From Elusimicrobiota bacterium (GTDB lineage: Bacteria > Elusimicrobiota > Elusimicrobia > UBA1565 > UBA9628): 64,000 nt of DNA. The translations under genes and the position numbers were made by a program. Location: the NCBI GenBank assembly GCA_026388095.1, contig JAPLKL010000064.1:42271-106270 (forward strand). Direction: 5' to 3'. Numbering within the stretch: the stretch's first letter is position 1; every line of letters starts with the position of its first letter. Under the pieces are notes generated by a model. It did not search any database. It saw only the letters and a program-made list of their open reading frames with translations, and was not told where the DNA came from. Shown in pieces: positions 11,788 to 27,294 of this stretch.

Positions 11788-12086
11788 GGCGGCCCAGCAG
11801 GCTGCTGATAAACCCTCCAGCGGAAAGGACTGTGTCCGGACACAGTCCTTTCGGTAGCGGGCACCAGTCCGTCCCCGAACTGGCGAGCCGAAGGCTCGCC
11901 AGTCGCGCCGAAGGCGCCATCCTTCGTGCGACTTATCGAATGGGTTCTGCCGCCCCGCTTCCGTGCGCTTTTGCCGCACGGCACCTGCCCGCCTTCCTTA
12001 CGGGCAGGAGCGCGGGGCGGTTGCGCCCGGCAGACGGCCGCCGGGCGCTCGCAGAACGGACTTTATCAGCAGCCTGCTAGGCCGCC
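11788..12086 (-). mobile_element. MITE-like element, hairpin repeat copy B with terminal inverted repeats
   Basis: A 25-bp terminal inverted repeat is present at 11788-11812 and 12062-12086 with 24 of 25 positions matching; its core is TAGCAGGCTGCTGATAAA. No transposase is encoded between the ends. Inside are perfect hairpins: GGACTGTGTCCGGACACAGTCC at about 11827-11848, TGGCGAGCCGAAGGCTCGCCA at 11880-11900, and GCGCCGAAGGCGC. Most of the interior matches copy A at 2.5 kb in the opposite orientation. The right end overlaps the crp/fnr-like gene and supplies its stop codon at 12077. The element separates the acyl-CoA dehydrogenase/fix block from the radical SAM/nitrogenase-like operon. Confidence 0.7.
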
Positions 12087-12745
12087 AAGGACTCCAGCTT
12101 CCTGCGGTCCAGGACCCGCAGGCGCTGGCCCCTGAGCTCGATGACGCGGCCCTCGCGCAGAGCGCGGAACTGGCGCGACACGGTCTCGATGCTGGTGCCG
12201 ATGAGGCTGCCGATCTCCACGCGGGAGAGGGGCAGGACGCCTTCGCCGGCCGGCGCGGGCAGCAGGCGCAGCAGGAAGGCGGCCAGCCGGCCGGCCGCGC
12301 TCTTGGTCCCGGAGTCCAGCAGGGCGTTGCGGGAAGCCGCCAAAGCGCTGGACAGGATCTGGATGACCTCGAAGGAGAGGGCGCGGTTGCCCTCGAGCAT
12401 CTCCTTGAAGCGCGCGGCCTCCAGGAAGCAGAGCTCCGCGTCGGCCACCACCTCGACCGTCTCGTCGTATTCCCCCGAGGCCAGGCTCTCCAGAGCGAAC
12501 ACGGAGCCGGGGCCGTAGAGCGTGATGAGCTGGGTCCTGCCGTTGGGCCCGGCCTTGTAGGACTTCAGCAGTCCGGACTTGATCGCGAAGATGCGCGTGG
12601 CGGGATTGCCCTGCTGGTAGATGACCTGCCGCTTCTTGTACCTGCCGTAGGCCATCAGGCAGACGGCCAGCTTCTTCGTCTCCGGACGCAGGGCCGCGAA
12701 GAAGCTCGCTTTGAGCACCGGGCACCCGACGCAATAGTCCTTCAT
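12077..12745 (-). CDS. Crp/Fnr-family transcription regulator
   Basis: This 222-residue protein has an N-terminal cyclic-nucleotide-binding beta-roll (YGPGSVFALESLASG) and a C-terminal winged helix (IGSLIGTSIETVSRQFRALR) with the usual T-x-E-T-V-S-R recognition helix. Cysteines at C5, C8 and C29, plus one near residue 106, resemble the Fe-S ligands of FNR, so an oxygen or redox signal is likely rather than cAMP. It is the last gene of the radical SAM/NifHDK-like operon, coupled by ATGA to the preceding gene, and may control that operon and the fix block. The stop codon falls inside the inverted repeat of the MITE-like element, so the C-terminus may have been changed by the insertion. Confidence 0.88.
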   Translation of the reverse strand: MKDYCVGCPVLKASFFAALRPETKKLAVCLMAYGRYKKRQVIYQQGNPATRIFAIKSGLLKSYKAGPNGRTQLITLYGPGSVFALESLASGEYDETVEVVADAELCFLEAARFKEMLEGNRALSFEVIQILSSALAASRNALLDSGTKSAAGRLAAFLLRLLPAPAGEGVLPLSRVEIGSLIGTSIETVSRQFRALREGRVIELRGQRLRVLDRRKLESLAA

Positions 12746-14103
12746 CCGCCCTCCGCCGGGCCGGCCGCGGCCCGGGTGTCGTTGATCTGCTCGCCGTCGA
12801 GCGCCAGGGACTTGGCCCGATACGGCCAGCGCGCGCGGCCCAAGCGGCGCAGCCACTGCCGGCAGTCCTCGATGGCGCCCTTGGGGAAGGAGTCGCTCTC
12901 GTACACGCGCCCCACGTCGCGGAAGTCCGCCTTGAGCCCGAACTTCTTGCGCTCGATGAAGAAGCTCGACCAGGCGTCGAGCCGGAAGGTCTGCACCGTG
13001 ATGTTGACCGGCAGGCTGAGGACGAAGGCGATGGTGCGCCGGAAGCCCTCGGGGGTGTCTCCGGGCAGGCCCAGGATCAGCTCGACCTCCGGGGTGGCGA
13101 AGGTGGAGATGAACTCCATGGTCCGGGCCACGGTCTCCGGGTCGTCCGGCCGGCGGCCCAGGCGGATGGCCTGCGGGGTGATGCTCTGCAGCCCCACCGT
13201 CATCACGCTCCACTTGAGCCGGGCCAGCAGCTCCAGCTGGTCCCGGCCGAGGAAGCGCCTGCCGATGGGGCCCACGGCCCCCACCACGGAGACGTCATCG
13301 AGCCGCAGCTCGCGGAAGGTGTCCACCACCGTGGCCATCAGCTCGATGTCGAGGCTCACGCTGGCGGTGTAGAGCCCCAGGACCTTCACCCCTTTCTCCG
13401 CGGCCGCGCGGATGCCCTCGCGCACGCTCTGCTTGCTCAAGCGGCGCATGCGCGGCCGGCGGTAGCAGCACAGGAAGCAGAAGGCGCAGCGGTACAGGCA
13501 GCCCCGCGAGAGGTCCACCCAGCCCGCCTGGGACTGGCGGTGCTGCTTGGGGATGTGGTCGATGGTGACCGGCGGCAGGCTCCCGACATCCTCGACCAGG
13601 ACGAAATCGGACCGCCCCCGCCACCTGCGCGAGCGCGGGTCCCAGGGCACCACTCCCGGCAGGCCGGCGAGGCTAGCCCCACCCGAGGCCAGGCGGTCCA
13701 GCAGCGCGGGCACGATCGCCTCGATCTCGCCGCAGAGCAGGGCGAAGTTCGGGTGGCGCAAGCCCTTGGCGGCCGCGAAGGCGGCGGTGACATAGGGCGG
13801 ATGAGCCACCCAGCCGCACAGGAAGAGGGGCAGCTCCGGGAGCTCCTCGGTCAGAGCGTCGATGAGGTCCACGGTCTCCACGATCTGGGCCCGGTTGGAA
13901 TGCAGGAGCACCAGGTCGGGCGCGGCCTGGCGCAGGGCGCGGACGTTGGCCTGCTGGTCGTCGTGGTCGAGCTGGACCCAGGCCACCTCCCAGCCCTCGA
14001 CCAGCAAGGGGATGCGGTGCAGGCCGAGCTCGAATTGCGCCGCCTCGCCGCAGAACTTGCGCGGGAAGAAGCCGATGGCCAAGGTCCTGGCCTTGGTCCT
14101 CAT
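12742..14103 (-). CDS. Radical SAM protein with cobalamin-binding-like N-terminus (1)
   Basis: This 453-residue protein has an N-terminal Rossmann-like domain (about 1-150) as in B12-binding radical SAM proteins, but without the DxHxxG motif for base-off cobalamin. The radical SAM core follows, with cluster cysteines at C202, C206 and C209 (CLYRCAFC) and an extra CC nearby. A later ILGLPGDTPEGF segment is typical of this family. It is a close paralogue of the next upstream gene. Both begin with a similar 'LAxxFFPxxFxGEAAQxELGLHR' layout, so the pair arose by duplication. ATG 14103 overlaps the stop of that gene; its own stop overlaps the crp/fnr start. Substrate is unknown. Confidence 0.85.
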   Translation of the reverse strand: MRTKARTLAIGFFPRKFCGEAAQFELGLHRIPLLVEGWEVAWVQLDHDDQQANVRALRQAAPDLVLLHSNRAQIVETVDLIDALTEELPELPLFLCGWVAHPPYVTAAFAAAKGLRHPNFALLCGEIEAIVPALLDRLASGGASLAGLPGVVPWDPRSRRWRGRSDFVLVEDVGSLPPVTIDHIPKQHRQSQAGWVDLSRGCLYRCAFCFLCCYRRPRMRRLSKQSVREGIRAAAEKGVKVLGLYTASVSLDIELMATVVDTFRELRLDDVSVVGAVGPIGRRFLGRDQLELLARLKWSVMTVGLQSITPQAIRLGRRPDDPETVARTMEFISTFATPEVELILGLPGDTPEGFRRTIAFVLSLPVNITVQTFRLDAWSSFFIERKKFGLKADFRDVGRVYESDSFPKGAIEDCRQWLRRLGRARWPYRAKSLALDGEQINDTRAAAGPAEGG

Positions 14104-15452
14104 GCGCGCGGCCCCCCCGCCGGGCGCGCGTTGAGATGCTCGCCGTCGAGCGCCAAGGTCCGGGCGCGATGGGTCCAGGGCGCCCGGCCCAGCCGGCGCA
14201 GCCAGTCCCGGCAGTCCTCCAGCGCCGCGGCCGGGAAAGTCGGGCTGCTCCGGATGACGCCGGCGCGGGCGAAGTCGGCCTTGAGCCCGAGCTTCCCCCG
14301 GTCCGCGAGGAAGTCCGACCACGGGTCGAGCCGGAGCGACTGCACGGTGACCTTAACGGGCAGGCCGAGCACGAAGCGCACCGTCTTCCGGAAGCCCTCG
14401 GGCGTGTCGCCGGGCAGGCCCAGGACGATCTCCACCTCGGGCGTGGCGAAGCTTGCGATGCTCTCCATGGTGCGGGCGAAGTCTTCGGGGTCCTCTTTGC
14501 GCCTGAGCAGGCGCTGGGCCTCGGGCGTGAGCGTCTGCAGGCCGATGGTCATGAGGTCCCAGTTCAAGGACGCCAGCAGCTCGAGCGCCTCGCCCCGGGC
14601 GTGACGGGCGTGCACCGGGCCCGCGACCTTGAGCTGGCCGAGCCCCAGCTCCCGCAGGGCGCCCGTCACCGAGCGCAGCAGCTCGACGTCGAAGCTGTTG
14701 CTCGTCGCGAGCAGGCCCAGCACCTCCACGCCCCGCGCGACCGCGGCGCGCGCCGCCGCGCGGATGCGCTCCGGGCCGAAGCGGCGCAGCCGCGGGCGGG
14801 GGAAGGCGCAGCAGAGGCAGAAGGCGCAGCGGTATTTGCAGCCGCGGGCCAGCTCCAGCCAGCCGGCCTTGCTGTCCTTCCAGGCCTTGGGGATGTGCGC
14901 CAGCGCGGCGTCGGGCAGCGCGTCGAGGTCCTCGACGACCGCGTACTCCTGGGAGCCGCGCCACGCGCGCCGGCGCTGGTCCCAGACCACGATGCCGGCC
15001 ACGCCGGCCAGGGCGTCCATGCCTCCGCCATCCGCGAGCTTCTCCAGCGCCCGCGGCATCACCGCCTCCACCTCGCCGCAGAGCAAAGCGAAGCTCGGGC
15101 TGGTCAGCCCGCCGGTGGCCGCGGCCACGGCGTCCACGTAAGGGGGATGCGCCGGCCAGCCGCACATGATCAGCGGCAGTCCGGGCCGGAGCCGGCCCAA
15201 GGCGTTGGCGAAGGCCAGGGCGTCGGCCGCCTGGGTGCGGTGGACGTGCAGCAGGACGGCCGCGGGCGCGCCTTCGGCCGCCGCGCGCGCGCTGTCCTCG
15301 GGAGCCGCGGGCGCGAGCTGGACCCAGAGCGGGCGCCATTGCGTCCCGATCATGCGCGGCAGGCGGTGCAGGCCGAGCTCGTACTGGGCCGCCTCCCCGC
15401 TGAAGGGCGTGGGGAAGAACGCCAGCGCGAGCGTCCGGCTCTTCCTAGGCAT
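14100..15452 (-). CDS. Radical SAM protein with cobalamin-binding-like N-terminus (2)
   Basis: This 450-residue paralogue of the gene at 12742-14103 has the same layout: a Rossmann-like N-terminus containing LLHVHRTQAAD and MCGWPAHPPYVDAV, then a radical SAM core with C205, C209 and C212 (CKYRCAFC) followed by LCC. ILGLPGDTPEGF-like VLGLPGDTPEGFRKT is conserved. It overlaps the gene upstream by eight bases and the one downstream by four, so all three radical SAM genes here are translated together. Such tandem paralogues often act on successive positions of one substrate; that is inference. Confidence 0.85.
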   Translation of the reverse strand: MPRKSRTLALAFFPTPFSGEAAQYELGLHRLPRMIGTQWRPLWVQLAPAAPEDSARAAAEGAPAAVLLHVHRTQAADALAFANALGRLRPGLPLIMCGWPAHPPYVDAVAAATGGLTSPSFALLCGEVEAVMPRALEKLADGGGMDALAGVAGIVVWDQRRRAWRGSQEYAVVEDLDALPDAALAHIPKAWKDSKAGWLELARGCKYRCAFCLCCAFPRPRLRRFGPERIRAAARAAVARGVEVLGLLATSNSFDVELLRSVTGALRELGLGQLKVAGPVHARHARGEALELLASLNWDLMTIGLQTLTPEAQRLLRRKEDPEDFARTMESIASFATPEVEIVLGLPGDTPEGFRKTVRFVLGLPVKVTVQSLRLDPWSDFLADRGKLGLKADFARAGVIRSSPTFPAAALEDCRDWLRRLGRAPWTHRARTLALDGEHLNARPAGGPRA

Positions 15453-16950
15453 GCGCCCTCCGCGGCGGCAGCGCCGTCTGGCCCAGGTAGAGGTAGTCCT
15501 TGTCGTGACGTTTGAGGCTGGCGCCCATCTCCGCGATGCGCCGGCGCACCGTGGGCCGGGGTATCCCGTAGCGGAAGCCCACCGGGAACTCGCCGCAGGC
15601 GCGCGCCAGGCCGCGCAGGGGGGCGGGCAGCGCGCCGCAGTCGAAGTCCTTGAGGGTGATGCCGTAGTCCCGGGCGCGCAGGTGCGTCTCGGAGCCCAGC
15701 GACAGGTAGAACGGGTTGGGCGAGAACTGCACGAGCTTGGTGCGGGCGAAGATGTCCTCGGCCCAGTCCATGGTGCGCCGGTGGTCCGCCTCGGTCTCGC
15801 CGGGGAAGCCCGCCAGCAGGTCGTAGCACATGGAGATGCCGAGCCGGTCGCCGTTGATGATGGCCTGGCGCACCGCCGCGGCGGCCGGGCGCCGGCGCAT
15901 CAGGCGCAGGACGCGGTCCGAGAAGCTCTGCACCCCGAGCTTGAGCAGGACGCAGCCGGACCGGGCCATGGCCTCGAGCCGCTCCGGGGTGAGCCCGTCG
16001 GGCCCGCAGAAGCTCTCCCAGGCGAAGCGGCCGCCGCGCTCCCGGAGCCTGGCCGTGAAGCGGTCCACCCAGGCCGGCGAGGCGTTGATGGTGTCGTCGT
16101 GGAAATGGAAGTTGCCGTGGCCGCGGCGCGCGGCCGCGGCTTCCATCTCCGCGGCCACGCCCTCGACGGCGCGCTGGCGGAAGCGCCCCTTGCCGGGCTC
16201 GGAGCAGAAGCCGCAGGGGCGCGGGCAGCCGCGGCTGGCCAGGATCGGCACGAAGTCGTTGGTGTTCATGCCCCGCCAGGACGGCCGCGGCAGCGAGTCC
16301 AGAGCCGGCAACGGTCCCGGAGGGGTCTGCGCCACCTCGCCCCGGGCGTCGAGGCGCGAGACGCCGGGCAGAGCGGGCTCTTGGCCCAGGGCCAGGCGCT
16401 CCACCAAAGCCGCGACCACGCCCTCGCCGTCGCCCTGCACCACCGCGTCGAAGCTCCCGGAGCGGAGCAGCAGGTGCCGCAGCGGCCGGAAGTCGAGGTT
16501 CGGCCCGCCCGCCGCGGTGCGCTTGCCCGAGGCCCGCAGACGGTAGGCGAGGGCCGCGGCGAAGTACTGCGTCATCATGTTGACGGAGAAGAGGAAGACC
16601 TCCCCCGACTCGCGCACGCTGGGCAGGTACTCCTCGACCTTGCGCACGATGGCCGCGGCGACCGGGCAGAGCCGGCCGAAGAGCTCCGGCCGCACCACCT
16701 GGAGCAGCAGGCCGGGGTCGACCCCGTCGCCCACGCCGCCGCCGATGCGGCGCGACAGCCCCAGGACGTAGTCGTCGTAGAAATCGGTCTCGGCGCGGTG
16801 CTCCGCGAAACTGATGTCGTGGAACGCGGTCTCAAAGCCCTCCCGCTCCAGGACCGCCTGGAGGTAGGCCAGGCCGATGTTCAGGAACTCGGTCTCGCCG
16901 TGGGGCGGGCAGTGCACCAGCACCACGCGGGCGCGGCGCGCGCCCTTCAT
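15445..16950 (-). CDS. B12-binding-type radical SAM protein (3)
   Basis: This 501-residue protein starts with RVVLVHCPPHGETEFLNIGL, the usual beginning of the cobalamin-binding domain in BchE/HpnP-like radical SAM proteins. The second half is a radical SAM core with C242, C246 and C249 (CPRPCGFC) and LLAGFPGETEADHR. The DxHxxG motif is not seen. A gene of this type could methylate, cyclise or rearrange a hydrocarbon or tetrapyrrole-like substrate. It follows the NifD/K-like gene with an ATGA overlap, which ties radical SAM chemistry to the nitrogenase-like enzyme in one transcript. Confidence 0.85.
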   Translation of the reverse strand: MKGARRARVVLVHCPPHGETEFLNIGLAYLQAVLEREGFETAFHDISFAEHRAETDFYDDYVLGLSRRIGGGVGDGVDPGLLLQVVRPELFGRLCPVAAAIVRKVEEYLPSVRESGEVFLFSVNMMTQYFAAALAYRLRASGKRTAAGGPNLDFRPLRHLLLRSGSFDAVVQGDGEGVVAALVERLALGQEPALPGVSRLDARGEVAQTPPGPLPALDSLPRPSWRGMNTNDFVPILASRGCPRPCGFCSEPGKGRFRQRAVEGVAAEMEAAAARRGHGNFHFHDDTINASPAWVDRFTARLRERGGRFAWESFCGPDGLTPERLEAMARSGCVLLKLGVQSFSDRVLRLMRRRPAAAAVRQAIINGDRLGISMCYDLLAGFPGETEADHRRTMDWAEDIFARTKLVQFSPNPFYLSLGSETHLRARDYGITLKDFDCGALPAPLRGLARACGEFPVGFRYGIPRPTVRRRIAEMGASLKRHDKDYLYLGQTALPPRRAHA

Positions 16951-18188
16951 TTGGGACGCCTCCGAAGGTAGAGCGCCGGCACAAAGCCCAGGCGCGACAA
17001 TTCCCGGGACAGCCCCCAGGCCCTGGTGTTGGCGCGGGTCAGGAGGTTGGCCAGGTTGTTGGCCAGGCGCACGGCCCCTTCGAAGCCGAGGTCGGGCTCC
17101 GGGGTCAGGCAGTGTCTGTCGAAGCAGGGGTAGGTGAATTCATACACCGGGACGCGCTCGCCGTGCCGGTATTTCTCCACGGAGCTGCCCACGATGAGGT
17201 CCGCCTCGCCTGAGCCGCGGGCCTCCTCCGGGCGGTCGCTGGCCCGCACCCAGGCCGGCCGCATGCCCAGGTCGCGGAGGAATTCGACCAAGGCCGGCAG
17301 CTTCTGGGATTCGGCGCACACGCCCACGCGCTTGCCCAGGCACGCCGCGCGCAAGGCCTGGATGCGCGGCACCGCCAGGCGCAGTTGCGCCGAGATGTAG
17401 GCCTCCGCGGCCTTGGCCCGGCCCGTGGCCTTACCCAGCTTGCGCAGGAAGGCGCTGCTGCCTCCGAGCCCGATGGGATAGACCGCATGGACCGTGCTCT
17501 GGCCGTAGCGCCGGGACAGGACCTCCGCGGCCTTCAGCCCGTAGTCGAAGGCGACATTGTACTTGGCCGCCCAGGCCCGCCTGAGGCCCCGGGTCTGGCC
17601 CGGGCCCGTGAAGACCGTGTTCAAGCCCAGGCCGATGCCCTCCGCCAGCTCGCGCAGGATGCGCAGGTTGGCCAGATGGTCCTGCTCCTGCCGGTCGCAC
17701 ATGTAGCCGACCAGGTTGATGAGCTTGTTGGAAGGCGCCGCGCCCGGCTGGTCCGTGCAGAGGTCCTGCGCGATGCGCTCCAAAGCGCTGCTGAAGCCCG
17801 CCCACAGGCCGCCCCGGAAGCCCGCGCCGCCCAGCACGATGACCGCGCCGGGAGGGAAGGAATGCGCCACGTCGGCCAGGTCGTCGCCCACGATCTCCGG
17901 GACGCAGCAGGAGACCACGAAGACGCGCGCCTTGGGGGAGCGCTTGCGCAGCCGCGCGATGCGCGCCCGGAGCTTGTCCGCGCCTCCCATGACCGCGTCC
18001 GGGCCTTCCATGGCCGACGTGGTCGCCCGGCCGTGGTCGAAGCCCATCAGGTCGTGGGCGCAGGCGGCGTAGAGCGCCATCTTCATGCAGCCGGCCGGGC
18101 CGTGGAACACGACGGCGGAGTCCCGGATGGGGTGGGCGGCGAAGAAGGCGCCCAAGATGGAGCAGGTGTGGACGCAGTCCTCGTTCAT
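16947..18188 (-). CDS. NifD/K-like (nitrogenase component 1 family) protein, pair 2
   Basis: This 413-residue protein is clearly of the NifD/K fold. HGPAGC (C34), TSAMEGPDAVMGG, then VSCCVPEIVGDDL (C94/C95) match the P-cluster and switch regions of NifK/NifN. FTGPGQTRGLRRAW lies in the middle nucleotide-fold domain. It is shorter than NifD or NifK (about 450-520), nearer BchN/BchB and CfbD. Conserved ligands for a FeMo-type cofactor are not evident. It overlaps its partner at 18185-19192 by ATGA, and the NifH-like gene is just upstream. It probably forms the catalytic component with that partner. Confidence 0.88.
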   Translation of the reverse strand: MNEDCVHTCSILGAFFAAHPIRDSAVVFHGPAGCMKMALYAACAHDLMGFDHGRATTSAMEGPDAVMGGADKLRARIARLRKRSPKARVFVVSCCVPEIVGDDLADVAHSFPPGAVIVLGGAGFRGGLWAGFSSALERIAQDLCTDQPGAAPSNKLINLVGYMCDRQEQDHLANLRILRELAEGIGLGLNTVFTGPGQTRGLRRAWAAKYNVAFDYGLKAAEVLSRRYGQSTVHAVYPIGLGGSSAFLRKLGKATGRAKAAEAYISAQLRLAVPRIQALRAACLGKRVGVCAESQKLPALVEFLRDLGMRPAWVRASDRPEEARGSGEADLIVGSSVEKYRHGERVPVYEFTYPCFDRHCLTPEPDLGFEGAVRLANNLANLLTRANTRAWGLSRELSRLGFVPALYLRRRPK

Positions 18189-19192
18189 GCGGGCCTCTCT
18201 GGCCGCCGGCAGTACGGCCCGTATCTCGCGAAGAAGCGCGAGCCCAGCTCGGCCTCCAGCTCTCCGGCCAGCTCGCGCATCCCCGAATACATCAGAAAAG
18301 AGCCGGGCGGCCGCACGTCGAGCATGGGCGGCCGCGGCCCGGCCCAGGCCAGGCTCCGGCCGCGCAGGCCCGGATGCTCTTCGGCCAGCCGGCGCAGCTC
18401 GCGGCGCCGCCACACCTCCACGAGCGCGGCGCGGCGGGTCCCTCCGCCGCAGGCCTCCACCATGAGCCGGAACATGCGGCTGGTCGCGGCTAGGCCCGAG
18501 GGCCTGGGCACCAGGATATAGGGCGTGCCGAACCTCTCTTTCATCCAAAGCCCGGCCCTGCGTCCCGGGTCGTCGTCTACGATGACGTTGAGCGCGGCCC
18601 GGGGCGCCCGCGCGAGCTCCGCCAGCGATGGGGTCCCGGTCAATATCGCGTTGAGCCGGATATCCAGAGCGGAGAGACAGCGCGCGAGCTCGTCGCGGAC
18701 GCCACGATAGTCGGCCCACGGGAAGGCCAGGAAATTGACGCTGCCCGCGCCGCGGCGGCCCGGCTTCATGAACCCCTCGACCAAAGCCTTGAACACGTCG
18801 ACCGCCGGGTCTCCCGCGCCGCGGTCCACCAGGCCGGAGGTGGGCAGGAAGATGATGGGCACGCCCAGCCGCGCCGCGGCCTGGGCGCAGACGGCGCGGG
18901 CGTCGTCGCCGATGAGCTCGCTGACGCAGGTCCCCAGCACGAAGATCAGCTCCGGCCGGGAGCGCTTGCGCACGGCCGCGAGCTTCGCGGCCAGAGCGTC
19001 CTCCCCGCCCATGATGGCGTCCATCTCGCTGAGGTCCGTCGCGCAGTAGTCGCCCGCCGCCCCTTGGGGGCGGGAGGGCAAAGAGAAATCGGCGCCGCAG
19101 CCGTTGGGGCCGTGCACGATGACGGCCACCGGCCCGGCGATGCAGGTGAGGGTCTGCCAGGCGTAGCGCATCACGCAGCAGGATTCCGACAT
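18185..19192 (-). CDS. Short NifD/K-like protein, pair 2
   Basis: This 335-residue protein keeps the N-terminal half of the component 1 signature: HGPNGC (C32), DYCATDLSEMDAIMGGED (C50) and GTCVSELIGDDA (C89). It is much shorter than NifD or NifK because the C-terminal domain is reduced. ATG 19192 fits a short N-terminus with SESCCVM. It follows the NifH-like gene by five bases and overlaps the next NifD/K-like start by ATGA. The three form a complete reductase-plus-catalytic-component set. The shortened C-terminus makes a buried FeMo-co-type site unlikely; a P-cluster-like centre that reduces a bound organic substrate, as in DPOR or CfbCD, is a better guess. Confidence 0.85.
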   Translation of the reverse strand: MSESCCVMRYAWQTLTCIAGPVAVIVHGPNGCGADFSLPSRPQGAAGDYCATDLSEMDAIMGGEDALAAKLAAVRKRSRPELIFVLGTCVSELIGDDARAVCAQAAARLGVPIIFLPTSGLVDRGAGDPAVDVFKALVEGFMKPGRRGAGSVNFLAFPWADYRGVRDELARCLSALDIRLNAILTGTPSLAELARAPRAALNVIVDDDPGRRAGLWMKERFGTPYILVPRPSGLAATSRMFRLMVEACGGGTRRAALVEVWRRRELRRLAEEHPGLRGRSLAWAGPRPPMLDVRPPGSFLMYSGMRELAGELEAELGSRFFARYGPYCRRPERPA

Positions 19193-19197
19193 GAGTC

Positions 19198-20046
19198 CTA
19201 GCTCCCGGAGCCGGCTGCCTTCAGGATGAGGTCGTCGAGCTCCCGGTCTCCGAGGGGCTTGGGCACGATGACCCGGGGCTTGGCCTCGATGCGGTCGGCC
19301 AGGTCCCGCAGGCTGCGCCCCACGGCGGAGTCGGGCCTGTCCTCGATGATGGTCCGGCCGCGGCGCTCCGCGTCCTGCACCGCGGGGTCGTTCGGGACGA
19401 AGGCCAAGACCTGCGTGCCCAAAGCGCCCGCGAAGGCCTTGATGATCTCGCGCTCTTGCCTCGTGTTCCTCAGGTTGCCGATGATCCCGGCCAGCCTCGT
19501 CGCGCTGCGCCGCGCGTGCCGCTGGATGGCCCGGGTGATGTTGTTGGCCGCGTAGAGGGACATGAACTCGCCCGAGACCACGAGGTAGACCTCGTCCGCG
19601 TAGCCCTCGCGGATGGGGACCGCGAAGCCGCCGCACACCACGTCTCCGAGCACGTCGTAGGCGATGTAGTCGTAGCCGGCGCTGTAGACGCCCAGGCGCG
19701 TCATGATCTCGATGGCCAGGATGATGCCGCGGCCGGCGCAGCCCACGCCCGGCTCCGGCCCGCCGGTCTCCACGCAATGCACGCCCGAAAATCCCCGGTG
19801 CACGAAGTCCTTGGCGCGCAGGGCCGTGGTGGACCGGCACTTCGAGAGGCCGAGCACGCTGGGCAGCCGGCGGCCGTGGAGGAGCAGCCGGCAGGAGTCG
19901 GCCTTCGGGTCGCAGCCGACCTGCAGGACCGGATGCCCCCGCTGGGCCAAAACGGCCGAAAGGTTGGCCGTGATCGTGGACTTGCCGATGCCGCCCTTGC
20001 CGTAGAAAGCGATCTGCCGCGGCCGCTTGTTCATCCTCGCGCGCAT
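19198..20046 (-). CDS. NifH-like reductase (nitrogenase iron protein family)
   Basis: This 282-residue protein has all hallmarks of the iron protein: P-loop GKGGIGKST (16-24), CDPKAD (45-50), C103 in GVGCAGRG and C138 in YDVLGDVVCGGFA. The two cysteines bridge a [4Fe-4S] cluster between subunits, and the Arg after CAG matches the ADP-ribosylation site of NifH. It should hydrolyse MgATP and pass single electrons to the NifD/K-like pair just downstream, perhaps also to the pair at 3.7-6.9 kb. ATG 20046 is used; ATG 20034, preceded by GAGG, is an alternative. It lies four bases after the double radical SAM gene. Sequence alone does not place it among NifH, BchL, CfbC or other clades. Confidence 0.93.
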   Translation of the reverse strand: MRARMNKRPRQIAFYGKGGIGKSTITANLSAVLAQRGHPVLQVGCDPKADSCRLLLHGRRLPSVLGLSKCRSTTALRAKDFVHRGFSGVHCVETGGPEPGVGCAGRGIILAIEIMTRLGVYSAGYDYIAYDVLGDVVCGGFAVPIREGYADEVYLVVSGEFMSLYAANNITRAIQRHARRSATRLAGIIGNLRNTRQEREIIKAFAGALGTQVLAFVPNDPAVQDAERRGRTIIEDRPDSAVGRSLRDLADRIEAKPRVIVPKPLGDRELDDLILKAAGSGS

Positions 20047-20050
20047 GATA

Positions 20051-22348
20051 TCAAGTATATCTAATCGGCTTGCAGCCTTTGAGGCCGAAACGGGCCGCGT
20101 ACTCCTTGGGCAAGCCCAGGCAGCAGCGGTCGAAAGCGCAGCCGCGGCAGGCCCGCGCTTTGACGTAGCCCTTGGAGAAGTCCTCGTACCCGGTCTCATG
20201 CCCCAGGGGCCGGTAGCGCCTCACCTTCTCTTCCCGGAACTCCGCGGGCACCGCGCAAGGCGGGAAAGAAGCATGGGTGGCGCTCAAGGGGCTCTGCACC
20301 GCGATGCCCTGTCCGCTCAGTAGGCGCATCGCCTTCACCAGTTCGGGGACCAGCGTGCCATAGGGGACCAGATAGGAGGCCGCGGCCGGCCTGTGCTCGG
20401 GGCAGGTCAAGGACGAGAAGTGGACCTGGACCTTGTCGTTGGCGCCGATCATCCGCGCCAGCCGCTCGGAGTAGGCTTCCAGCTGCCCGACGTTCCGGCT
20501 GTTGATGACGATGTTGACGATCACGCGGTGGCCGGCGGCAATCAAGGACTCCAGGCCGCGCACCGCCGCGGGCAGCATGCCCCGCGTGCCGGTCAGCTCG
20601 TCGTACAAAGCCGGCTCGAGCGCGTGCAGCGAGACGAAGAACACGAGCTTGGGGTCCGGGCGGAATCCCTTCAGATAGGACGCCTTGGCGAAGGCGACGG
20701 CGTTGGTCTGGACCCTGACCTGCGCGAAGCGCTTCATGCCCAGGAGCAGCCGGACCAAAGCCGGGAGCTCCGGCCTCAGGGTCGGCTCGCCGCCCGTGAG
20801 CGTGAACTGCGCGCCGCAGAACAGCTCCGCGGCCGCCTTGAAGGCCAGCTCCAGCTCACGGGCGGCCGGCTCCCGGGCCGGCCTGGGAGCGGAGCAGAAC
20901 GGGCAGCGCTGGTTGCAGCGGGAGGTGCAGCGGACCAGCACCTCGCCCGGCACATAGGAGCCGGCCTCGTGCCGCTCCACGCTCAGGAAGGGGAAACGGT
21001 CCTGGACCAGGTCGAGGAGCCGGCTCTTGGCCGAGGCGATGGTGTGCCCCCCCTCCGGCCCCTTGATGAGGAGCGGAGAGCTCGCGCGCAGACGCCGCAG
21101 GAACGCCAGCGCCCCCTGAAGCTCCTTGCGCCCCCAGCCGGGCCCGCTCCACAGGTAGGGGATGCCCTGCGGCATGGTGCGCAGGCCCAGGCGCCGCGCC
21201 TTGCGGTGCATCGCGGTTCCCGGGAACACCTGCAAAAGAGAGACGAGCGCCGCGGCCATGGGGGTAGCGCGGTCCTGCGCCAGGCCGTCGAGGTAGCGCA
21301 TGGTCCGCTTGAAGCCGGCGAGGGTGTCGCCCGGCATGCCGAGGATCACGCCGACCGAGGGCGGCTTGATGTCCCGCAGGAGCCGCAGCGCGCTTTCAAA
21401 GCGCCTCCGGTCGAAGGGCTTGCGGCCGGCGAGCCGCAAAGCGGGCGCGCTCAAGGTCTCCATGCCCAGCAGAACCTGGCCGGAGGGGATCTCCGAAAGC
21501 CAGCGGGCCTGCTCTTGGTCCAGCAGCTCGTAGCGCAGGTTGTAGGTGAAGGTCAGCCGGCCTTTGGGATCGGCCTTCTTGAGCGCGCGCACGAACCTGC
21601 GCAAGGTGCTGGTCTCGTAGTTGATGGCCGAATCCACGATGGTGAGGTTGGTCATCCCACGGGCCGCGGCCCAGCGCAGCTCGGCCGCGATCCTCTCTTG
21701 CGAGTGCACCCGGCGGAGCTTCGCCGAGTTCCAGGCGCAGTAGCCGCAGTCGTTGGGGCAGCCCCTGGCCAGCTCCAGCATCATGCCGTCCTTGGGGGGA
21801 TTCAAAATGCCTGCCAGATAGGGCGAGGGGATGCGGTCGATATCCGCCAAAGGGCCTCCGACAGCGGCGTCGGGCCGCAGGCCCGCCTTGAGCCAGCGCG
21901 CCAGCGGGACCTCGGCCTCGCCCGCTATGGCGACATCCACGCCGGGCTGCGCCGCGGCCGGGGGCCGGCCGCCCAGGACCGTGATCAGCGAGGGCTTCCT
22001 CGCCTTGAGCAGTCGGCAGGCCTCGAGCGCCGCCGCGAAGTTCCAGCAGTAGCCGGAGAAGCAGACCGCGGCCGGGTTCCCGCGCAGCAGGTCCTCGACC
22101 GCGCCCAACGGCAGGACGGCCTCCTCGCGCGAGCCGCCGGAGCGGTCCGCGATGTTCACGACCCGGATGTCGTAGCGCGCCCGGATGCCGGGGATCGAGT
22201 CGCAGTAGGCTTTCAGATAAGCCGTGCCCAGGCTGTAGGGCTCGCTGGCCAAAGCGTCGATGTAGGCGCCGGGCTCCGGCCGGCCGGCGCCGCGCCTGGG
22301 GAAGGCCCGGAAAAGGCCGACGAGCTTGATGACCTTTCTGGCGCTCAT
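20051..22348 (-). CDS. Double radical SAM protein (1)
   Basis: This 765-residue protein contains two complete radical SAM domains. The first half has a Rossmann-like domain (about 1-160) and a cluster motif at C197, C201 and C204 (CPNDCGYC), with LGMPGDTLAGF. The second half has C478, C482 and C485 (CNQRCPFC), TGGEPTLRPEL for SAM binding, and a C-terminal cysteine group (CRGCAFDRCCLGLPKEY) like a SPASM/twitch auxiliary cluster. Thus a B12-type radical SAM enzyme is fused to a SPASM-like one. The two would share substrate or act in sequence. It is coupled by ATGA to another double radical SAM gene upstream and precedes the NifH-like gene by four bases. Confidence 0.85.
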   Translation of the reverse strand: MSARKVIKLVGLFRAFPRRGAGRPEPGAYIDALASEPYSLGTAYLKAYCDSIPGIRARYDIRVVNIADRSGGSREEAVLPLGAVEDLLRGNPAAVCFSGYCWNFAAALEACRLLKARKPSLITVLGGRPPAAAQPGVDVAIAGEAEVPLARWLKAGLRPDAAVGGPLADIDRIPSPYLAGILNPPKDGMMLELARGCPNDCGYCAWNSAKLRRVHSQERIAAELRWAAARGMTNLTIVDSAINYETSTLRRFVRALKKADPKGRLTFTYNLRYELLDQEQARWLSEIPSGQVLLGMETLSAPALRLAGRKPFDRRRFESALRLLRDIKPPSVGVILGMPGDTLAGFKRTMRYLDGLAQDRATPMAAALVSLLQVFPGTAMHRKARRLGLRTMPQGIPYLWSGPGWGRKELQGALAFLRRLRASSPLLIKGPEGGHTIASAKSRLLDLVQDRFPFLSVERHEAGSYVPGEVLVRCTSRCNQRCPFCSAPRPAREPAARELELAFKAAAELFCGAQFTLTGGEPTLRPELPALVRLLLGMKRFAQVRVQTNAVAFAKASYLKGFRPDPKLVFFVSLHALEPALYDELTGTRGMLPAAVRGLESLIAAGHRVIVNIVINSRNVGQLEAYSERLARMIGANDKVQVHFSSLTCPEHRPAAASYLVPYGTLVPELVKAMRLLSGQGIAVQSPLSATHASFPPCAVPAEFREEKVRRYRPLGHETGYEDFSKGYVKARACRGCAFDRCCLGLPKEYAARFGLKGCKPIRYT

Positions 22349-24552
22349 CTGCGGGCGGCCTTCTGCCGGTAGTACCGCTCGTACTCCTGCCTGTAGAAGC
22401 CGAGGCAGGCGATGTAATCGGTGCAGAGGAGGCATTCCTCCGGCTTGCTCTTGAGCGGCCTGATCCGGCCCAGTTGGAACACGGGCAGCGGCGCCAGCTT
22501 GTCCCGGAACCCGGCGGGCATCAGGCAGAACGGCATGCCCTGGACGGAGATGTCCAGGTCCGCGAACTGGCTCAAAGCTTCGCTGAGCACCGGCCGGGCC
22601 GCGGCGAACGGGAGGATGAGGGCCGGGTCGGAGGCGACCTTGCCCAGCGGCGCGGGGAAGCGCAGGTGGATCGAGCGCAGCCCCAGGTCCTTCAGGAAAC
22701 CGATGGTGGCCACGAGCGTGGGCAAAGTCTGCGCGGTGATGCGGATGGTGACGTCCAGGTGCTCCAGCCCGGCCGCCCGGAGGTTCCTGATGCCCGCCAC
22801 CGTCTGCACGAAGCTGCCGGGCACGTTGGTGACCGCGTCGTGGACGTCCGGCCGCAGGGAGTTCAGCGCGGTGCTGACCTGGTTCATGCCGCCGCCCACG
22901 ATCCTCTCGGCCAGGTGCTTGTAGACGAAGCTCCGCGCGTTCGTGGCCAGGCAGCGCCGCACATAGCCCGCGGCGCGCCCCGCTCCGGCCAGCTTCACCA
23001 GAAGTCCGGGCTCCAGCGTGGGCTCCCCGCCCAGGACGAGCAGGTCCCGGGCGCCTGCCTGCTTGCGCTCGCGCAGGCGGCGCAGCAGCTGCCGCGCCCC
23101 GGCATTGCCTTGGCCCAGGAGGCCGGCGACCTCGCAGTGCCGGCAGGAGTTGTTGCAGGGCAGGCCCAAGTCCAGGACGCAGACGGTATCCAAAGCGTCG
23201 AGCACGTGCTTGAAGAGCTCTTTCATGCGCAGCACGTCCTGCGGGGTGAAGCGGTCGGTCTTGATCACCGGGCGCTGCTCCAGCGCCCAGCCCATGAGCT
23301 TGTCGGGATGCTCGGCGAACCAGCCCTTATCTTCGCAGGACCGGTACAGCGCGGTGCCCCGGAACGGTATGGCGTGCTGCAGCAGCGGCCAGGCCCCGTG
23401 GATCTCGTAGAGCGCCTGGGCGAACTCCAGCGTGCGGTTCATCTGCTTCTTGTCCTCGCCGGGCATGCCGATGATGTAGTGCACCTGGCTGGGCAGGCCG
23501 ACGGCCTGGCAGTCCTTGACCGTCTGGATCACTGATTTGAGGTCGAGCCGCTTGTCCACGATGCCGGAGAGCACGCGCGGGTCGCCCGATTCCGCGGAGA
23601 CCGTGAGCTTGGTGTTGCCGGCCCGCTTGATGCGCCCGATGTCCTCCTTGGTGAGGCGGTCGGCCCGGAAGCCGTTGACCGCGTCCCAGGCGATGTTCTT
23701 GGCCGCGAGGAACCTGGTGAGCCGCTGGAACCGGTCCGCCTCCAGGTTGATGTTGTTGTCCAGGAAGAAGAACCGCTCCACCTTGAAGCGCCGGCGCAAG
23801 TCCAGGATCATCTTCTTGAGGTAGCCGACCGAGTGTCCGCGCCAGGGCATGCCCAGGACCTGCTGGGTGCAGAAACTGCAGGAGTACTTGCAGCCCCGGC
23901 TGGTCATGAGGGCCAGGAAGCGCTCGGGCTTGTGGTACTCGTGCACCAGGTCGAGGCGCACGGCGTCGGCCAGCGCGGACTGGTAGTTGTCCATGTCCAG
24001 CAGGTCGTAGGCCGGATAGGGCAGCTCGTCGAGGTCCGCGATGGGCGCGGCCGGGGCTTTCTTGCCGGCCAGCGCGGCGATGAGCTTGAAGTCGGCCTCG
24101 CCGGTGAGCACCGAGTCGAGCTGGGGGACCTGCTTCATGAGCTTCTGGGGGTCGTAGGGGAAGTAGTTCATCCCGCACACGTAGCAGTCAACGGCCATGA
24201 TGCGCGCCTTGGGATAAGACCGCCGGGCGGCTTCGGCGACCTCCTTAAAATAGGTCTCGTGGAGCTTGTACACGTCGGAGAACATGGTGATGACGAGCAC
24301 GACCACGTCGGCCTGGCGCCGCTTCATCTCAGCCTCGATGTCGACGAGCTCGGCCCCCACGTGGAAGAGTCCGTCGGAGATCGGCCGGTAGTTGAGGCGC
24401 GGCCGCAGATACAGGGCGTCCAGGACCGAGACCTCGTGGCCTTGGGCGCGCGCCAGGGCGGCGTTGGTGAGCATCCCGATGTTGGAGAACATGGGATAGT
24501 GCGCGAAGACCTTGGGGAGCTGGATCGGCGGGCTGACGAAGAGGATCTTCAT
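22345..24552 (-). CDS. Double radical SAM protein (2)
   Basis: This 735-residue protein has the same double design as its downstream neighbour. It starts MKILFVSPPIQLPKVF, a typical cobalamin-binding-domain start. The first cluster motif is C221, C225, C228 (CKYSCSFC) with IIGMPGEDKKQ. The second is C466, C470, C473 (CNNSCRHC) with VLGGEPTLEPGL. The C-terminus has EECLLCTDYIACLGFYRQEY, another possible auxiliary cluster site. Its partner shares the same order of domains but little obvious sequence, so the fusion is old or arose twice. The start overlaps the preceding stop by ATGA. Confidence 0.85.
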   Translation of the reverse strand: MKILFVSPPIQLPKVFAHYPMFSNIGMLTNAALARAQGHEVSVLDALYLRPRLNYRPISDGLFHVGAELVDIEAEMKRRQADVVVLVITMFSDVYKLHETYFKEVAEAARRSYPKARIMAVDCYVCGMNYFPYDPQKLMKQVPQLDSVLTGEADFKLIAALAGKKAPAAPIADLDELPYPAYDLLDMDNYQSALADAVRLDLVHEYHKPERFLALMTSRGCKYSCSFCTQQVLGMPWRGHSVGYLKKMILDLRRRFKVERFFFLDNNINLEADRFQRLTRFLAAKNIAWDAVNGFRADRLTKEDIGRIKRAGNTKLTVSAESGDPRVLSGIVDKRLDLKSVIQTVKDCQAVGLPSQVHYIIGMPGEDKKQMNRTLEFAQALYEIHGAWPLLQHAIPFRGTALYRSCEDKGWFAEHPDKLMGWALEQRPVIKTDRFTPQDVLRMKELFKHVLDALDTVCVLDLGLPCNNSCRHCEVAGLLGQGNAGARQLLRRLRERKQAGARDLLVLGGEPTLEPGLLVKLAGAGRAAGYVRRCLATNARSFVYKHLAERIVGGGMNQVSTALNSLRPDVHDAVTNVPGSFVQTVAGIRNLRAAGLEHLDVTIRITAQTLPTLVATIGFLKDLGLRSIHLRFPAPLGKVASDPALILPFAAARPVLSEALSQFADLDISVQGMPFCLMPAGFRDKLAPLPVFQLGRIRPLKSKPEECLLCTDYIACLGFYRQEYERYYRQKAARR

Positions 24553-26372
24553 TCTTCGGGGATCTTGATCAGCTTCAGGAGCCACTGGTTGCTGGTCCCG
24601 GGCCGCACCGGCCGGTGGGTGTTCAGCTTCAGCGGCAAGCCCTTCTTCCGGATGAACTCGAGCACCTGCTCGGAGCTCCAGTTGCGGTAATGCTCGAAGC
24701 CCGGCCCCGCGGCGCGGCGGGCGCGCCGCGTCTGTTCCTTGGAGCGCAGGAGCCCGAAGGGCACGCATTCCGCGATGACCACGATGCCGAAATCCCGCAC
24801 CAGCGCGGTCATCGCGGCGAAGGCCTGCTCCAGGTCCCGGAAGTGGTTGAGCGAGCGCAGCGCGAAGATGTAGTCGAAGTAGCCGTCCTGGAACGAGAAG
24901 TCCTCGATGGGCGAATCGTGGACCCGCGCCCGCGGATGCCGCTTCTTGAGCTGGGCCAGCGCCCGGGCGTCCACGTCGAGGCCGTGGTACTCGATCTTGC
25001 CCTCGGCCAGCAGCTTCTCCACCGTGTCCCGGTAGAAGCGCAGGTCGCCGCAGCCGATGTCCAGCACCCGGCCGGAGAGCCTGCGGATCTCCTGCCTCAG
25101 CCAGCGCTCCTCCCGCTCGAAGGGGATCCCTTCCAGCACCCCGTAGCAGACGCCGCAGCGCTCCTTCTTGGCGCAGTCCCGGCAGACCTCCTGCATGCCC
25201 AACTGCCGCACGTCGTTCTGGAAATCGTCCAGCATGGCCTTGTCCGTGATGTCCAGGTAGAGCTGCTCGCGGGAGAACTTCACCGCCTGGAGCTCGGCGT
25301 CGCTGAAGCTGCGGGTGTCGGTCCGGTAGAGGGAGAGCTTGCCCCCCCGGTCGAGGTACACGCTGCGCAAGGGGGCGTTGCCCTTGATGAGCGAGTCCCC
25401 CGGGCACGCGGTCCGGACGGGCCGGAAGCCCTTGAGCTCCCGGTCGAAGGTGTAGTCGAAGGAATTGGAGCGCACCTCTTTGAGCGGCTTGACCGCGTCG
25501 AAGGCGAAGAGCTCCACGGCCTTCCGGAACACGCCGGGGCAGGTCTGCTCAAGGGAGCACTCGCTGCAGAGCAGGGGCTGGGCGTAGTCCGCCGGAGCGG
25601 GGAGGTCCAGGCAGGTAAGCCCCTGTCCGTCCAAAGACTTGAGCCGGTCCGCGCCCAGCCCGGCTGAGGAGTCCTTCCCCATGAGGCAAAGCGGCAGGCC
25701 TTCGCAGTACGCCCGCAGGCCGGCCCTCTGGAAGGCCCGGAGCGCCTGGGCCGCGAGCTCCGCGGCCGCGTCCGGGGCCAACAGGCGCTCCTGCGCCGCC
25801 TTCCCGGACAGGCGCGGCAGCGGGTAATAGAACGTGAAATAGAGGTCCGCCTTCTTCTGTTTTGCGAGCCGCAGGAACAGCTCCGCCGGCGCGGGGTGGA
25901 ATCCCCGGATGAGCGGCAGCCGGAGCTCGACGGTCAGGCCGCGGCGCGCCAGGAGCTGCCGCGCCGCGGCCGCGGCCTGCAGGAACGCGCCCTCGGTGCG
26001 GGCCAGGGCGTCATGGCCGGCGGCGTCGGAGGAGAAGAGGTTCACGATGACGGAATCGAGCCCGTTGGCCAGCAGGGCCGAGCGCGGCTCGGGGTAGAGG
26101 AGCATCCTCGCGTTGGTCGCCAAGCCCACGGACAGCCCCTTGGACCTGGCGCAGGCGGCCAGCTCCACGATGTCCTTGCGGAGCAGCGGCTCTCCGCCCA
26201 CGAAGATGACGCGCTTGGCCCCGAGCCTGGCGGCGTCCGCGATGGCCTTCTTGATCGCCGGGGCGGGGACCACGGCCTTGGTCCCGCGGATGGGGCAGAG
26301 CACGCAATTGAGGCTGCAGAGTCCGCCGCAGTAGACGAGGGTCCCTTCTATGATCCTGCCGGAAGCGCCCAT
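24549..26372 (-). CDS. Radical SAM-methyltransferase fusion
   Basis: This 607-residue protein begins with a radical SAM domain: C19, C23 and C26 (CSLNCVLC), then FVGGEPLLRKDIVEL. Two later cysteine groups (LLCSECSLEQTCPG and CRDCAKKERCGVCYG) suggest auxiliary clusters. From about residue 435 a class I SAM methyltransferase follows (GRVLDIGCGDLRFYRDTV, then HGLDVD and IFALRSLNHFRDLEQA). One protein could thus use SAM both as radical source and methyl donor. It is coupled by ATGA to the double radical SAM gene downstream and lies four bases from the YVTN gene upstream. Substrate is unknown. Confidence 0.85.
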   Translation of the reverse strand: MGASGRIIEGTLVYCGGLCSLNCVLCPIRGTKAVVPAPAIKKAIADAARLGAKRVIFVGGEPLLRKDIVELAACARSKGLSVGLATNARMLLYPEPRSALLANGLDSVIVNLFSSDAAGHDALARTEGAFLQAAAAARQLLARRGLTVELRLPLIRGFHPAPAELFLRLAKQKKADLYFTFYYPLPRLSGKAAQERLLAPDAAAELAAQALRAFQRAGLRAYCEGLPLCLMGKDSSAGLGADRLKSLDGQGLTCLDLPAPADYAQPLLCSECSLEQTCPGVFRKAVELFAFDAVKPLKEVRSNSFDYTFDRELKGFRPVRTACPGDSLIKGNAPLRSVYLDRGGKLSLYRTDTRSFSDAELQAVKFSREQLYLDITDKAMLDDFQNDVRQLGMQEVCRDCAKKERCGVCYGVLEGIPFEREERWLRQEIRRLSGRVLDIGCGDLRFYRDTVEKLLAEGKIEYHGLDVDARALAQLKKRHPRARVHDSPIEDFSFQDGYFDYIFALRSLNHFRDLEQAFAAMTALVRDFGIVVIAECVPFGLLRSKEQTRRARRAAGPGFEHYRNWSSEQVLEFIRKKGLPLKLNTHRPVRPGTSNQWLLKLIKIPEE

Positions 26373-26376
26373 AAGC

Positions 26377-27294
26377 TCAGCCGAATATCACTCCGAGCGG
26401 CGAGATGCCGACGGGAATGTGCCCGAGCACCTTCCTCTTGGCGACATCCACCAGCGAGACCGAGTTGGCGGCCCGGTTGCTGACCGCGGCCAGCCTGCCG
26501 TCCGGGCTCATGGCGAGCTCCGAGGGGTTCTCCTGGCAGGTGAGCTCGCCCACGGCCTTGAGGGTCTTGCGGTCCACGATGGAAACCGTGTCTTGGTCGG
26601 CGTTGGTGACGTAGAGCGCTTGGCCGTCGCGCGTGCACTCGATGCCGATGTGCCTGGTCCCCACCGCGAAGGTCTTGGTGACTTTGCGCAGCCGGGCGTC
26701 GAGGACCGCGACCCGGGGCGACATGAAGTCCGCGACGTAGAGCTGCCGGTCGTCCGGGGACAGGGCGATGCCGAGCGGCCCCTCGAAGAGGCTCACGGTG
26801 TAGTCCACATTGAGGCTGTCGGGGTCCACGATGGATACGTTGTGGGACTCCTCGTTGGTGACCGCGATGAAGCTCCCGTCCGCGGGCATCACGGCCACGC
26901 AGGGCGAGTGGCCGATCGCGATGGTCCGCTCCACGGTGAGGGAGCGCAGGTCTATGACGCTCAGGGAATGCGCGTATTCATTGGCCACGTACGCCTTGCG
27001 GCCGTCCGGCGCCACCACGACCCCGGCCGGCCCGTCCTCGCCCGGCAAGGTCTTCTTGACCGTCAGGGTCTTGAGGTCCACGACCGAGGTGTCGCAGGTG
27101 TCCCGGTTGGTGACCAGCAAGAGCTTGCCGTCGGGGGTGATGTCGGCGATCATGGGGCAGCCGCCGACCTTGACTTTCGTCTTGACCTTCAGGGTCCGCA
27201 ATTCTATCACGGACAGGTCGTCGCTGCCGTTGTTGGCCGTGAAGATATAGCGATACGGCCGGGCTCTCCGCGGGGGCCTTTTCCCAGGGGGCAT
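26377..27294 (-). CDS. YVTN-type beta-propeller, first gene of the nitrogenase-like operon
   Basis: This 305-residue protein is made of about seven repeats of the YVTN family, e.g. 'DLSVIELRTLKVKTKVKVGG' and 'VSIVDPDSLNVDYTVSLFEG', each with a following SPDG/TPDGKLLLVTN-like strand. No signal peptide is visible: the start is basic (MPPGKRPPRRARPYR), so it appears cytoplasmic, whereas many YVTN proteins are exported. It may bind or shield a cofactor or substrate. It is the first gene of the 27.3-12.1 kb run. TATCAT lies six bases before its ATG, with no ribosome site, which fits a leaderless mRNA. Confidence 0.85.
   Translation of the reverse strand: MPPGKRPPRRARPYRYIFTANNGSDDLSVIELRTLKVKTKVKVGGCPMIADITPDGKLLLVTNRDTCDTSVVDLKTLTVKKTLPGEDGPAGVVVAPDGRKAYVANEYAHSLSVIDLRSLTVERTIAIGHSPCVAVMPADGSFIAVTNEESHNVSIVDPDSLNVDYTVSLFEGPLGIALSPDDRQLYVADFMSPRVAVLDARLRKVTKTFAVGTRHIGIECTRDGQALYVTNADQDTVSIVDRKTLKAVGELTCQENPSELAMSPDGRLAAVSNRAANSVSLVDVAKRKVLGHIPVGISPLGVIFG

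Follow-up and report, generated by a model that had tools for sequence, protein, structure and literature searches.

Introduction

To our knowledge, nitrogenase-like enzymes described so far either use a large iron–sulphur cofactor or reduce tetrapyrroles. In 2020, Meheust (in ISME J) reportedly described nitrogenase paralogues in Elusimicrobiota, designated group VI, that are accompanied by many radical S-adenosylmethionine (SAM) proteins. Group VI is classed as 'putative tetrapyrrole cofactor biosynthesis', as cited in PMC9391474. Among characterised relatives, MarDK holds its [Fe8S9C] cluster through the same six cysteines that bind the P-cluster, together with Cys270 and His429, and DPOR, COR and CfbCD contain [Fe4S4] clusters and tetrapyrrole sites only (PMC12552129). 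In isethionate reduction, a nitrogenase-like enzyme works with one radical SAM protein (PMC11423573). Here, we analyse a window of 64,000 nucleotides from Elusimicrobiota bacterium (GenBank assembly GCA_026388095.1, contig JAPLKL010000064.1, positions 42,271 to 106,270 of the forward strand), in which three nitrogenase-like genes, here called H, D and K, sit within an operon rich in radical SAM genes.

The window lies on contig 64 (C64) of a metagenome-assembled genome of 4.6 Mb in 79 contigs. We conclude that the operon most likely drives one difficult reduction in a biosynthesis, not nitrogen fixation, and we lean slightly towards the view that HDK is an ATP-driven two-component reductase that lacks an iron–molybdenum (FeMo-co) or L-type cofactor and acts on an organic substrate fed to it by the radical SAM enzymes.

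Results

All genes of the operon lie on the minus strand and coordinates are positions in the window. H (19198..20046; 282 aa; PF00142, 339 bits) is a NifH-like reductase with a P-loop and both NifH-type cluster cysteines, C103 and C138. It is followed by D (18185..19192; 335 aa; PF00148, 156 bits), a NifD/E-like subunit, and by K (16947..18188; 413 aa; PF00148, 214 bits), a full-length NifK-like subunit. Ligands were mapped on a single alignment of ~90 D/K proteins, comprising NifD, NifK, NifE, Mar-type proteins, BchN/B/Y/Z, CfbD and the Elusimicrobiota paralogues. All six P-cluster positions are occupied by cysteine (C6, C32 and C89 in D; C9, C34 and C95 in K), bearing out an earlier, preliminary description of the window that had reported visible cluster cysteines in H, D and K. 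The position of the cofactor-anchoring cysteine (Cys275 in NifD, Cys270 in MarD) is taken by Asp in D and by Ser in the D ortholog of a related genome, G230; the Asp substitution is visible too in separate alignments to NifE. Where BchB has its Asp ligand, K has Cys. Six P-cluster cysteines without a cofactor anchor form a pattern found in none of the characterised classes compared (Nif, Mar, NifE, Bch and Cfb), and most of the six are gone from a second pair in the window, the group VI-type D2/K2, and from the other own-genome pairs shown.

D also departs from its relatives in shape. Its profile match is interrupted at positions 312–403 of the hidden Markov model and, compared with NifD, ~85 residues of domain III have been lost in frame with the terminal helix kept, so that the His442/His429 region is gone as well. 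The G230 ortholog continues into domain III up to the end of its contig. An AlphaFold2 model of D (mean predicted local distance difference test score, pLDDT, 77.4) is confident for residues 5–281 and disordered for 282–335; its Foldseek matches were NifEN, MarD and NifD. The best sequence matches in the PDB were NifE for D and AnfK for K, at ~19–27% identity. NCBIfam scores of the D/K proteins scanned fell far under the nif equivalog cut-offs, and scores against the CfbC and CfbD models were likewise under cut-off.

Trees were built under LG+R4 and then under a mixture model, followed by approximately unbiased (AU) tests of alternative placements; Isr, Nfa and several group IV subclusters are absent from them, and the relatives' loci were labelled group VI from their phylum and radical SAM context. 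In the mixture-model trees, each of H and D is joined to its G230 counterpart with full support (100/100). The clades of Nif+Mar H (100/98) and CfbC (100) exclude H, which does not group with BchL/X and stands apart from group VI; D falls outside NifD/E (100/99), Mar-type D (97/96), group VI D (96/96) and CfbD (100). Neither protein belongs to the Bathyarchaeal nitrogen-fixation-like (NFL) clade. LG+R4 had made H sister to Nif/Bathyarchaeal H (95) and D sister to the Elusimicrobiota D radiation (100), and the mixture model places D nearest to group VI without significant support. No alternative tried was rejected by the AU tests, among them H with BchL/X (p-AU 0.225), H in a joint clade with group VI (p-AU 0.30) and a sister position to CfbC/D, although H and D lie outside the CfbC/D clades. 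We therefore claim a distinct branch, outside the sampled Nif, Mar, Cfb, Bch and group VI clades, and name no sister. A specifically Nif/Bathyarchaeal-like H, as drawn under LG+R4, is sustained by neither the mixture model nor the AU tests and was dropped. The preliminary description had held that the set matches no characterised nitrogenase-like enzyme, and that branching within a characterised clade would speak against it: no such branching of H or D occurred in the mixture-model trees, and for the sampled classes both trees and cysteine pattern agree with its statement.

The HDK lineage is rare. A search of 341 Elusimicrobiota genomes for D orthologs (E ≤ 1e-20) returned a clear one in a single other genome, G230, at 55% identity (52–55%), the remaining matches being at 32–35%. 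In G230, the H ortholog (locus L061) is 76–78% identical and the K ortholog, 61% identical, stands at the beginning of another contig (C270), so the H-D-K order is probably kept across the contig break. With all three genes and the cysteines retained, HDK is a maintained, conserved unit and a separate lineage with its own ligand pattern.

The operon itself (12077–27294) is a run of eleven intact open reading frames with coding-type GC content at third codon positions (0.90–0.97). Its gene content, order and strand are as first described, with family assignments backed by Pfam and NCBIfam profile searches. Reading from 27294 down to 12077, it begins with a YVTN/YncE-type beta-propeller protein of 305 aa (26377..27294; TIGR02276 196 bits, PF21783 88 bits) and continues with rSAM-MT, a 607-aa fusion of a radical SAM domain (CxxxCxxC at C19) to a class I SAM methyltransferase (24549..26372; PF04055 + PF13649), homologues of which occur in loci L206–L208. 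Two double radical SAM proteins come next, each with two PF04055 stretches: rSAMx2_A (22345..24552; 735 aa; motifs at C221 and C466), with a B12-type half and an HxsC4/NirJ2-like half, and rSAMx2_B (20051..22348; 765 aa; motifs at C197 and C478; TIGR03977 69 bits), with a B12-type half and an HxsC-like half. After H, D and K stand three further radical SAM genes, which bring the number of radical SAM proteins in the operon to six: rSAM_C, of the B12 type (15445..16950; 501 aa; PF04055 78 bits; motif at C242); rSAM_D (14100..15452; 450 aa; PF04055 55 bits), with a CxxxCxxCxCC motif; and rSAM_E (12742..14103; 453 aa), a tandem paralogue of rSAM_D (53%) recognised by sequence comparison and DNA repeats D1/D2. 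A Crp/Fnr-family regulator of 222 aa closes the run (12077..12745; PF00027 + PF13545; best NCBIfam model FnrL/FixK, under cut-off). At six of the ten junctions the genes overlap by ATGA; of the remaining four, one overlaps by 8 nt and three have gaps (4, 4 and 5 nt), which makes the first account of 'nearly all' genes joined by ATGA slightly generous. Its statement that NifB, NifE, NifN, NifU and NifS are missing holds for the run, NifB not having been searched for genome-wide. An Rfam search found no upstream riboswitch, such as a cobalamin riboswitch, and the operon holds no tandem-repeat peptide. A defence-system reading was discarded, its matches being weak and generic (viperin/radical SAM, methyltransferase).

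Structure prediction and profiles help to place the radical SAM partners. The AlphaFold2 model of rSAM_D (pLDDT 73.8, a moderate value) matches CysS, TokK and TsrM in Foldseek at E about 1e-12 to 1e-13, so rSAM_D is predicted to have a cobalamin-dependent radical SAM fold with a CxxxCxxC motif, and may use cobalamin. NirJ2, AhbD, BchE and BzaD appear among the sub-threshold NCBIfam matches of some radical SAM halves, and HxsC/HxsC4 models recur on halves of rSAM-MT, rSAMx2_A and rSAMx2_B. Full-length homologues of rSAMx2_A occur in only three other genomes of the 341: G230, G005 and G004. In all three, the homologue follows a homologue of rSAM-MT, itself preceded by a precursor peptide with ~20–30 HxS repeats, mostly HGS, and genes for HxsB and HxsD are present (G230 HxsB scores 531 bits against an NCBIfam cut-off of 370). 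The window's pair is ~28–32% identical to these cassette pairs and has the same gene order, and its operon contains no HxsA precursor or HxS repeats, no HxsB and no HxsD. The source genome encodes its own HxsA4 peptide on contig C57 (NF038313, 138 bits; cut-off 55), in a cassette whose genes converge with those of a D/K pair of group VI. There, the precursor with ~30 HxS repeats lies at L223:12174-12677 (-), and HxsB is apparently split into open reading frames 12696-13154 and 13166-14218. Taken together, the link to HxsA4 is a family association at ~30% identity, not a demonstration.

Past the Crp/Fnr gene, on the same strand, is a further series of genes that had gone unmentioned before: an acyl-CoA dehydrogenase (ACAD; 10322..11692; PF00441/02771/02770), for which we infer a link to HDK; FixA, similar to electron-transfer flavoprotein beta (9597..10343; PF01012); FixB, similar to the alpha subunit (8614..9600; PF00766, PF01012); a FixC-like flavoprotein (7220..8617; PRK10157 FixC 309 bits and PRK10015 327 bits, both under curated cut-offs); a FixX-like ferredoxin (6936..7223; PRK15449 FixX 40 bits, under cut-off; Fer4_10); D2 and K2; and a SPASM radical SAM protein. 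The FixC is a diverged additional copy, the common one being on contig C41. D2 (5022..6857; PF00148 50 bits) is a second NifD-like protein with no adjoining H and with ~30% identical homologues in Elusimicrobiota group VI loci; K2 (3697..5016; PF00148 137 bits) is 36–45% identical to Elusimicrobiota group VI K proteins.

Nitrogenase-like genes are plentiful elsewhere in the source genome, which encodes five NifH-like proteins (PF00142) and 14 D/K-like proteins (PF00148) in seven pairs, four of these within 31 kb on the window's contig; the loci lie at C64:31099-48461 and on C57, C69 and C40 (L037, L038, L040 and L223). Five H for seven pairs makes sharing of H likely, and D2/K2 probably use the H of HDK or another copy. 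Several relatives also carry multiple NifH-like genes. NifH-NifD fusions of ~750–850 aa are found in Bathyarchaeota as well as in group VI loci of Elusimicrobiota (L038:9653-12149, L045:8863-11221, L050 and L065:9968-12220), and G230 seems to have a fusion of a radical SAM domain with a NifD-like domain of group VI (L061:1459-3490, +). Plasmid pTS2 of the cultured spirochaete Treponema saccharophilum (L111/L171) encodes NifH together with NifX-like proteins and two D/K pairs that resemble Mar; one of the K proteins is clearly related to MarK, scoring 342 bits against 9d9u_C. A protein combining 4Fe-4S ferredoxin and NodU-like carbamoyltransferase parts adjoins nitrogenase-like genes in two genomes (L037:14980-18354 (-), running into window positions 1-1083, and L205:2180-4039), and in the source genome it is fused to an HxsC-like radical SAM domain.

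Discussion

Each described system shares something with HDK and departs from it elsewhere. Group VI offers the same phylum, H/D/K paralogues amid a large radical SAM set and no cofactor-anchoring cysteine, but neither H nor D of the window falls within the group VI clades and proteins of the D2/K2 type have lost most of the P-cluster cysteines that DK has kept. MarHDK and IsrHDK (group IV) have H, D and K in one operon that also includes a radical SAM gene and, in Mar, the six P-cluster cysteines; Mar, however, retains Cys270 and His429 for [Fe8S9C], whereas D has Asp and no domain III, and stands among many radical SAM genes instead of one. NifEN and NifDK supply the nearest PDB matches, and NifDK the same six cysteines, yet identity is low, the window lacks the cofactor ligand and no nif genes occur in the run; compared with nitrogenases proper (Nif/Vnf/Anf), Cys275 has become Asp, the His442 region is deleted and H and D branch outside the Nif clades. 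DPOR (BchLNB), COR (BchXYZ) and CfbCD, which have no large cofactor and pass electrons directly to an organic substrate, provide our working analogy. They differ in turn: DPOR and COR combine BchN-type triple cysteines with the BchB Asp ligand where K has Cys, and the operon has no tetrapyrrole genes, while CfbD is homodimeric with two of the three cysteine positions and the window encodes a separate K. The HxsA4/HxsC4 cassettes for ribosomally synthesised and post-translationally modified peptides match in the homologous rSAM-MT and double radical SAM pair and its order, and differ in possessing HxsA4, HxsB and HxsD. What is already known is that Elusimicrobiota have radical SAM-linked nitrogenase paralogues; what is new is the match of rSAM-MT and rSAMx2_A to a pair beside the HxsA4 precursor in three relatives.

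We can outline how such a reductase might work. An H homodimer with one [4Fe-4S] cluster on C103 and C138 would accept low-potential electrons, for which the neighbouring FixABCX is a plausible source, and on ATP hydrolysis would hand them to an iron–sulphur cluster common to D and K, held by the six P-cluster-type cysteines. From there, electrons would pass straight to an organic substrate in the position of nitrogenase's cofactor, an electron logic likened to that of DPOR, COR and CfbCD. The substrate would be built or methylated by three B12-type radical SAM proteins, two fusions of B12-type and SPASM/HxsC-like halves and one radical SAM-methyltransferase, and Crp/Fnr may turn the operon on or off under anoxia. 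This reading draws on the anatomy of the operon, the six cysteines kept beside a replaced anchor, the missing domain III of D, the lack of NifB in the operon, the maintenance of HDK in G230, the predicted B12-type fold of rSAM_D and the FixABCX genes nearby. Gene content, motifs, the lost cofactor ligand, the shortened D and the distinct lineage are observed directly; the electron path, FixABCX as donor, the organic nature of the substrate and the use of cobalamin are what we infer. The substrate may be a tetrapyrrole, as the group VI precedent and all cofactor-free relatives suggest, a peptide, as the HxsA4 link suggests, or another small molecule.

A special case of the preferred reading, rather unlikely in our judgement, is that HDK reduces a tetrapyrrole, perhaps modified, supplied by B12-type radical SAM enzymes to give a new cofactor. 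The characterised cofactor-free members of the superfamily all have tetrapyrrole substrates (PMC12552129), group VI has been filed accordingly (PMC9391474) and NirJ2, AhbD, BchE and BzaD models match some radical SAM halves; these likenesses are nonetheless generic and far under equivalog cut-offs, and the six P-cluster cysteines differ from the Bch/Cfb pattern. The operon is also without a chelatase, a SUMT-type methylase or a decarboxylase. The source genome does encode 5-aminolevulinate dehydratase (HemB), but so do 36 of 38 relatives, whether or not they carry nitrogenase-like genes, and the enzyme was rejected as a discriminator. Because of the HxsA4 association, a peptide substrate has to be taken seriously as an alternative: HDK and the radical SAM enzymes would act in trans on a ribosomal peptide of the HxsA4 kind, with HDK reducing a modified residue. 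Three observations point this way: in G230, G005 and G004 the homologous pair immediately follows HxsD-HxsB-HxsA4-type genes, the source genome has its own HxsA4 peptide beside a group VI D/K pair, and HxsC/HxsC4 matches recur. Against this, the window has no precursor or HxS repeat, the pair is just ~28–32% identical, no NifH was found in G005 despite its HxsA4 cassette, and an HxsA4 peptide lies near only one of ~20 nitrogenase-like loci, so that we think this version improbable. A bolder proposal, to which we give a similarly low probability, is a further way of working within the nitrogenase superfamily. Here electrons would be relayed through a P-cluster-type site, the active site would hold no metallocofactor, the alpha subunit would be opened and of two domains, and the substrate would be large and made by radical SAM enzymes, for example a ribosomal peptide of the His-Xaa-Ser type. 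Such a nitrogenase-like enzyme would have a peptide or protein as its target.

DK might instead hold an L-cluster-like cofactor, as in Mar, Isr or NifEN, and either reduce a small molecule or build a cluster. In both its sequence and its predicted structure D most resembles NifE and MarD, the six cysteines are as in Nif and Mar and several nitrogenase-like enzymes have one radical SAM partner (IsrB, MarB; PMC11423573). We nevertheless find this very doubtful: the anchoring cysteine is absent from both orthologs, the histidine region is deleted in the window's D and the operon has no NifB-like gene (a search confined to the operon). That the locus is partly decayed, with D a deletion remnant, HDK a non-working reductase and H mainly serving D2/K2, is highly improbable in our view. 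The in-frame loss of ~85 aa relative to NifD-type proteins, into which region the G230 ortholog runs, the excess of D/K pairs over H and the lack of an H beside D2/K2 would fit decay, but all genes are open with a strong coding signature, and the six cysteines, the Walker motif and the translational couplings are intact.

Several observations weigh against an organic-substrate reductase served by this set of genes. D is without most of domain III, which forms part of the cavity in solved relatives, and we know of no characterised enzyme that combines all six P-cluster cysteines with the lack of a catalytic cofactor. Among 57 genomes searched, a FixABCX unit of the window's type stands beside nitrogenase-like genes only here, which rules it out as a conserved partner; as it is moreover an extra copy, its role as donor would be conjectural. 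Inverted copies of a ~150-bp palindrome-containing element at 2481-2644 and 11820-11967 flank the ACAD-Fix-D2K2-radical SAM series, which is thus probably a unit separate from the operon. The synteny comparison suggested in the preliminary description gave a divided answer. H-D-K is kept in G230, but its surroundings there differ, with an opposite-strand radical SAM gene before H and, after K, a radical SAM gene and a carbamoyltransferase gene of a kind present at the left edge of the window; rSAM_D and rSAM_E have no close homologue in the 341 Elusimicrobiota genomes. The surrounding radical SAM set is thus not conserved in the sole relative, and the idea that this set encodes a new biosynthesis is a hypothesis drawn from a single genome. 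The preliminary description's reductive biosynthesis stands as the best class of reading, its novelty tempered by the description of this kind as group VI, for which a tetrapyrrole role was predicted (as cited in PMC9391474).

If the preferred reading of HDK as a reductase without a large cofactor is correct, the combination of a full set of P-cluster ligands with a lost cofactor site, alongside many radical SAM partners, would uncouple the two nitrogenase clusters in their evolution, and the operon would indicate a novel reduced natural product or cofactor. For the Elusimicrobiota clusters more widely, the link to HxsA4 cassettes provides a concrete alternative to the published tetrapyrrole guess.

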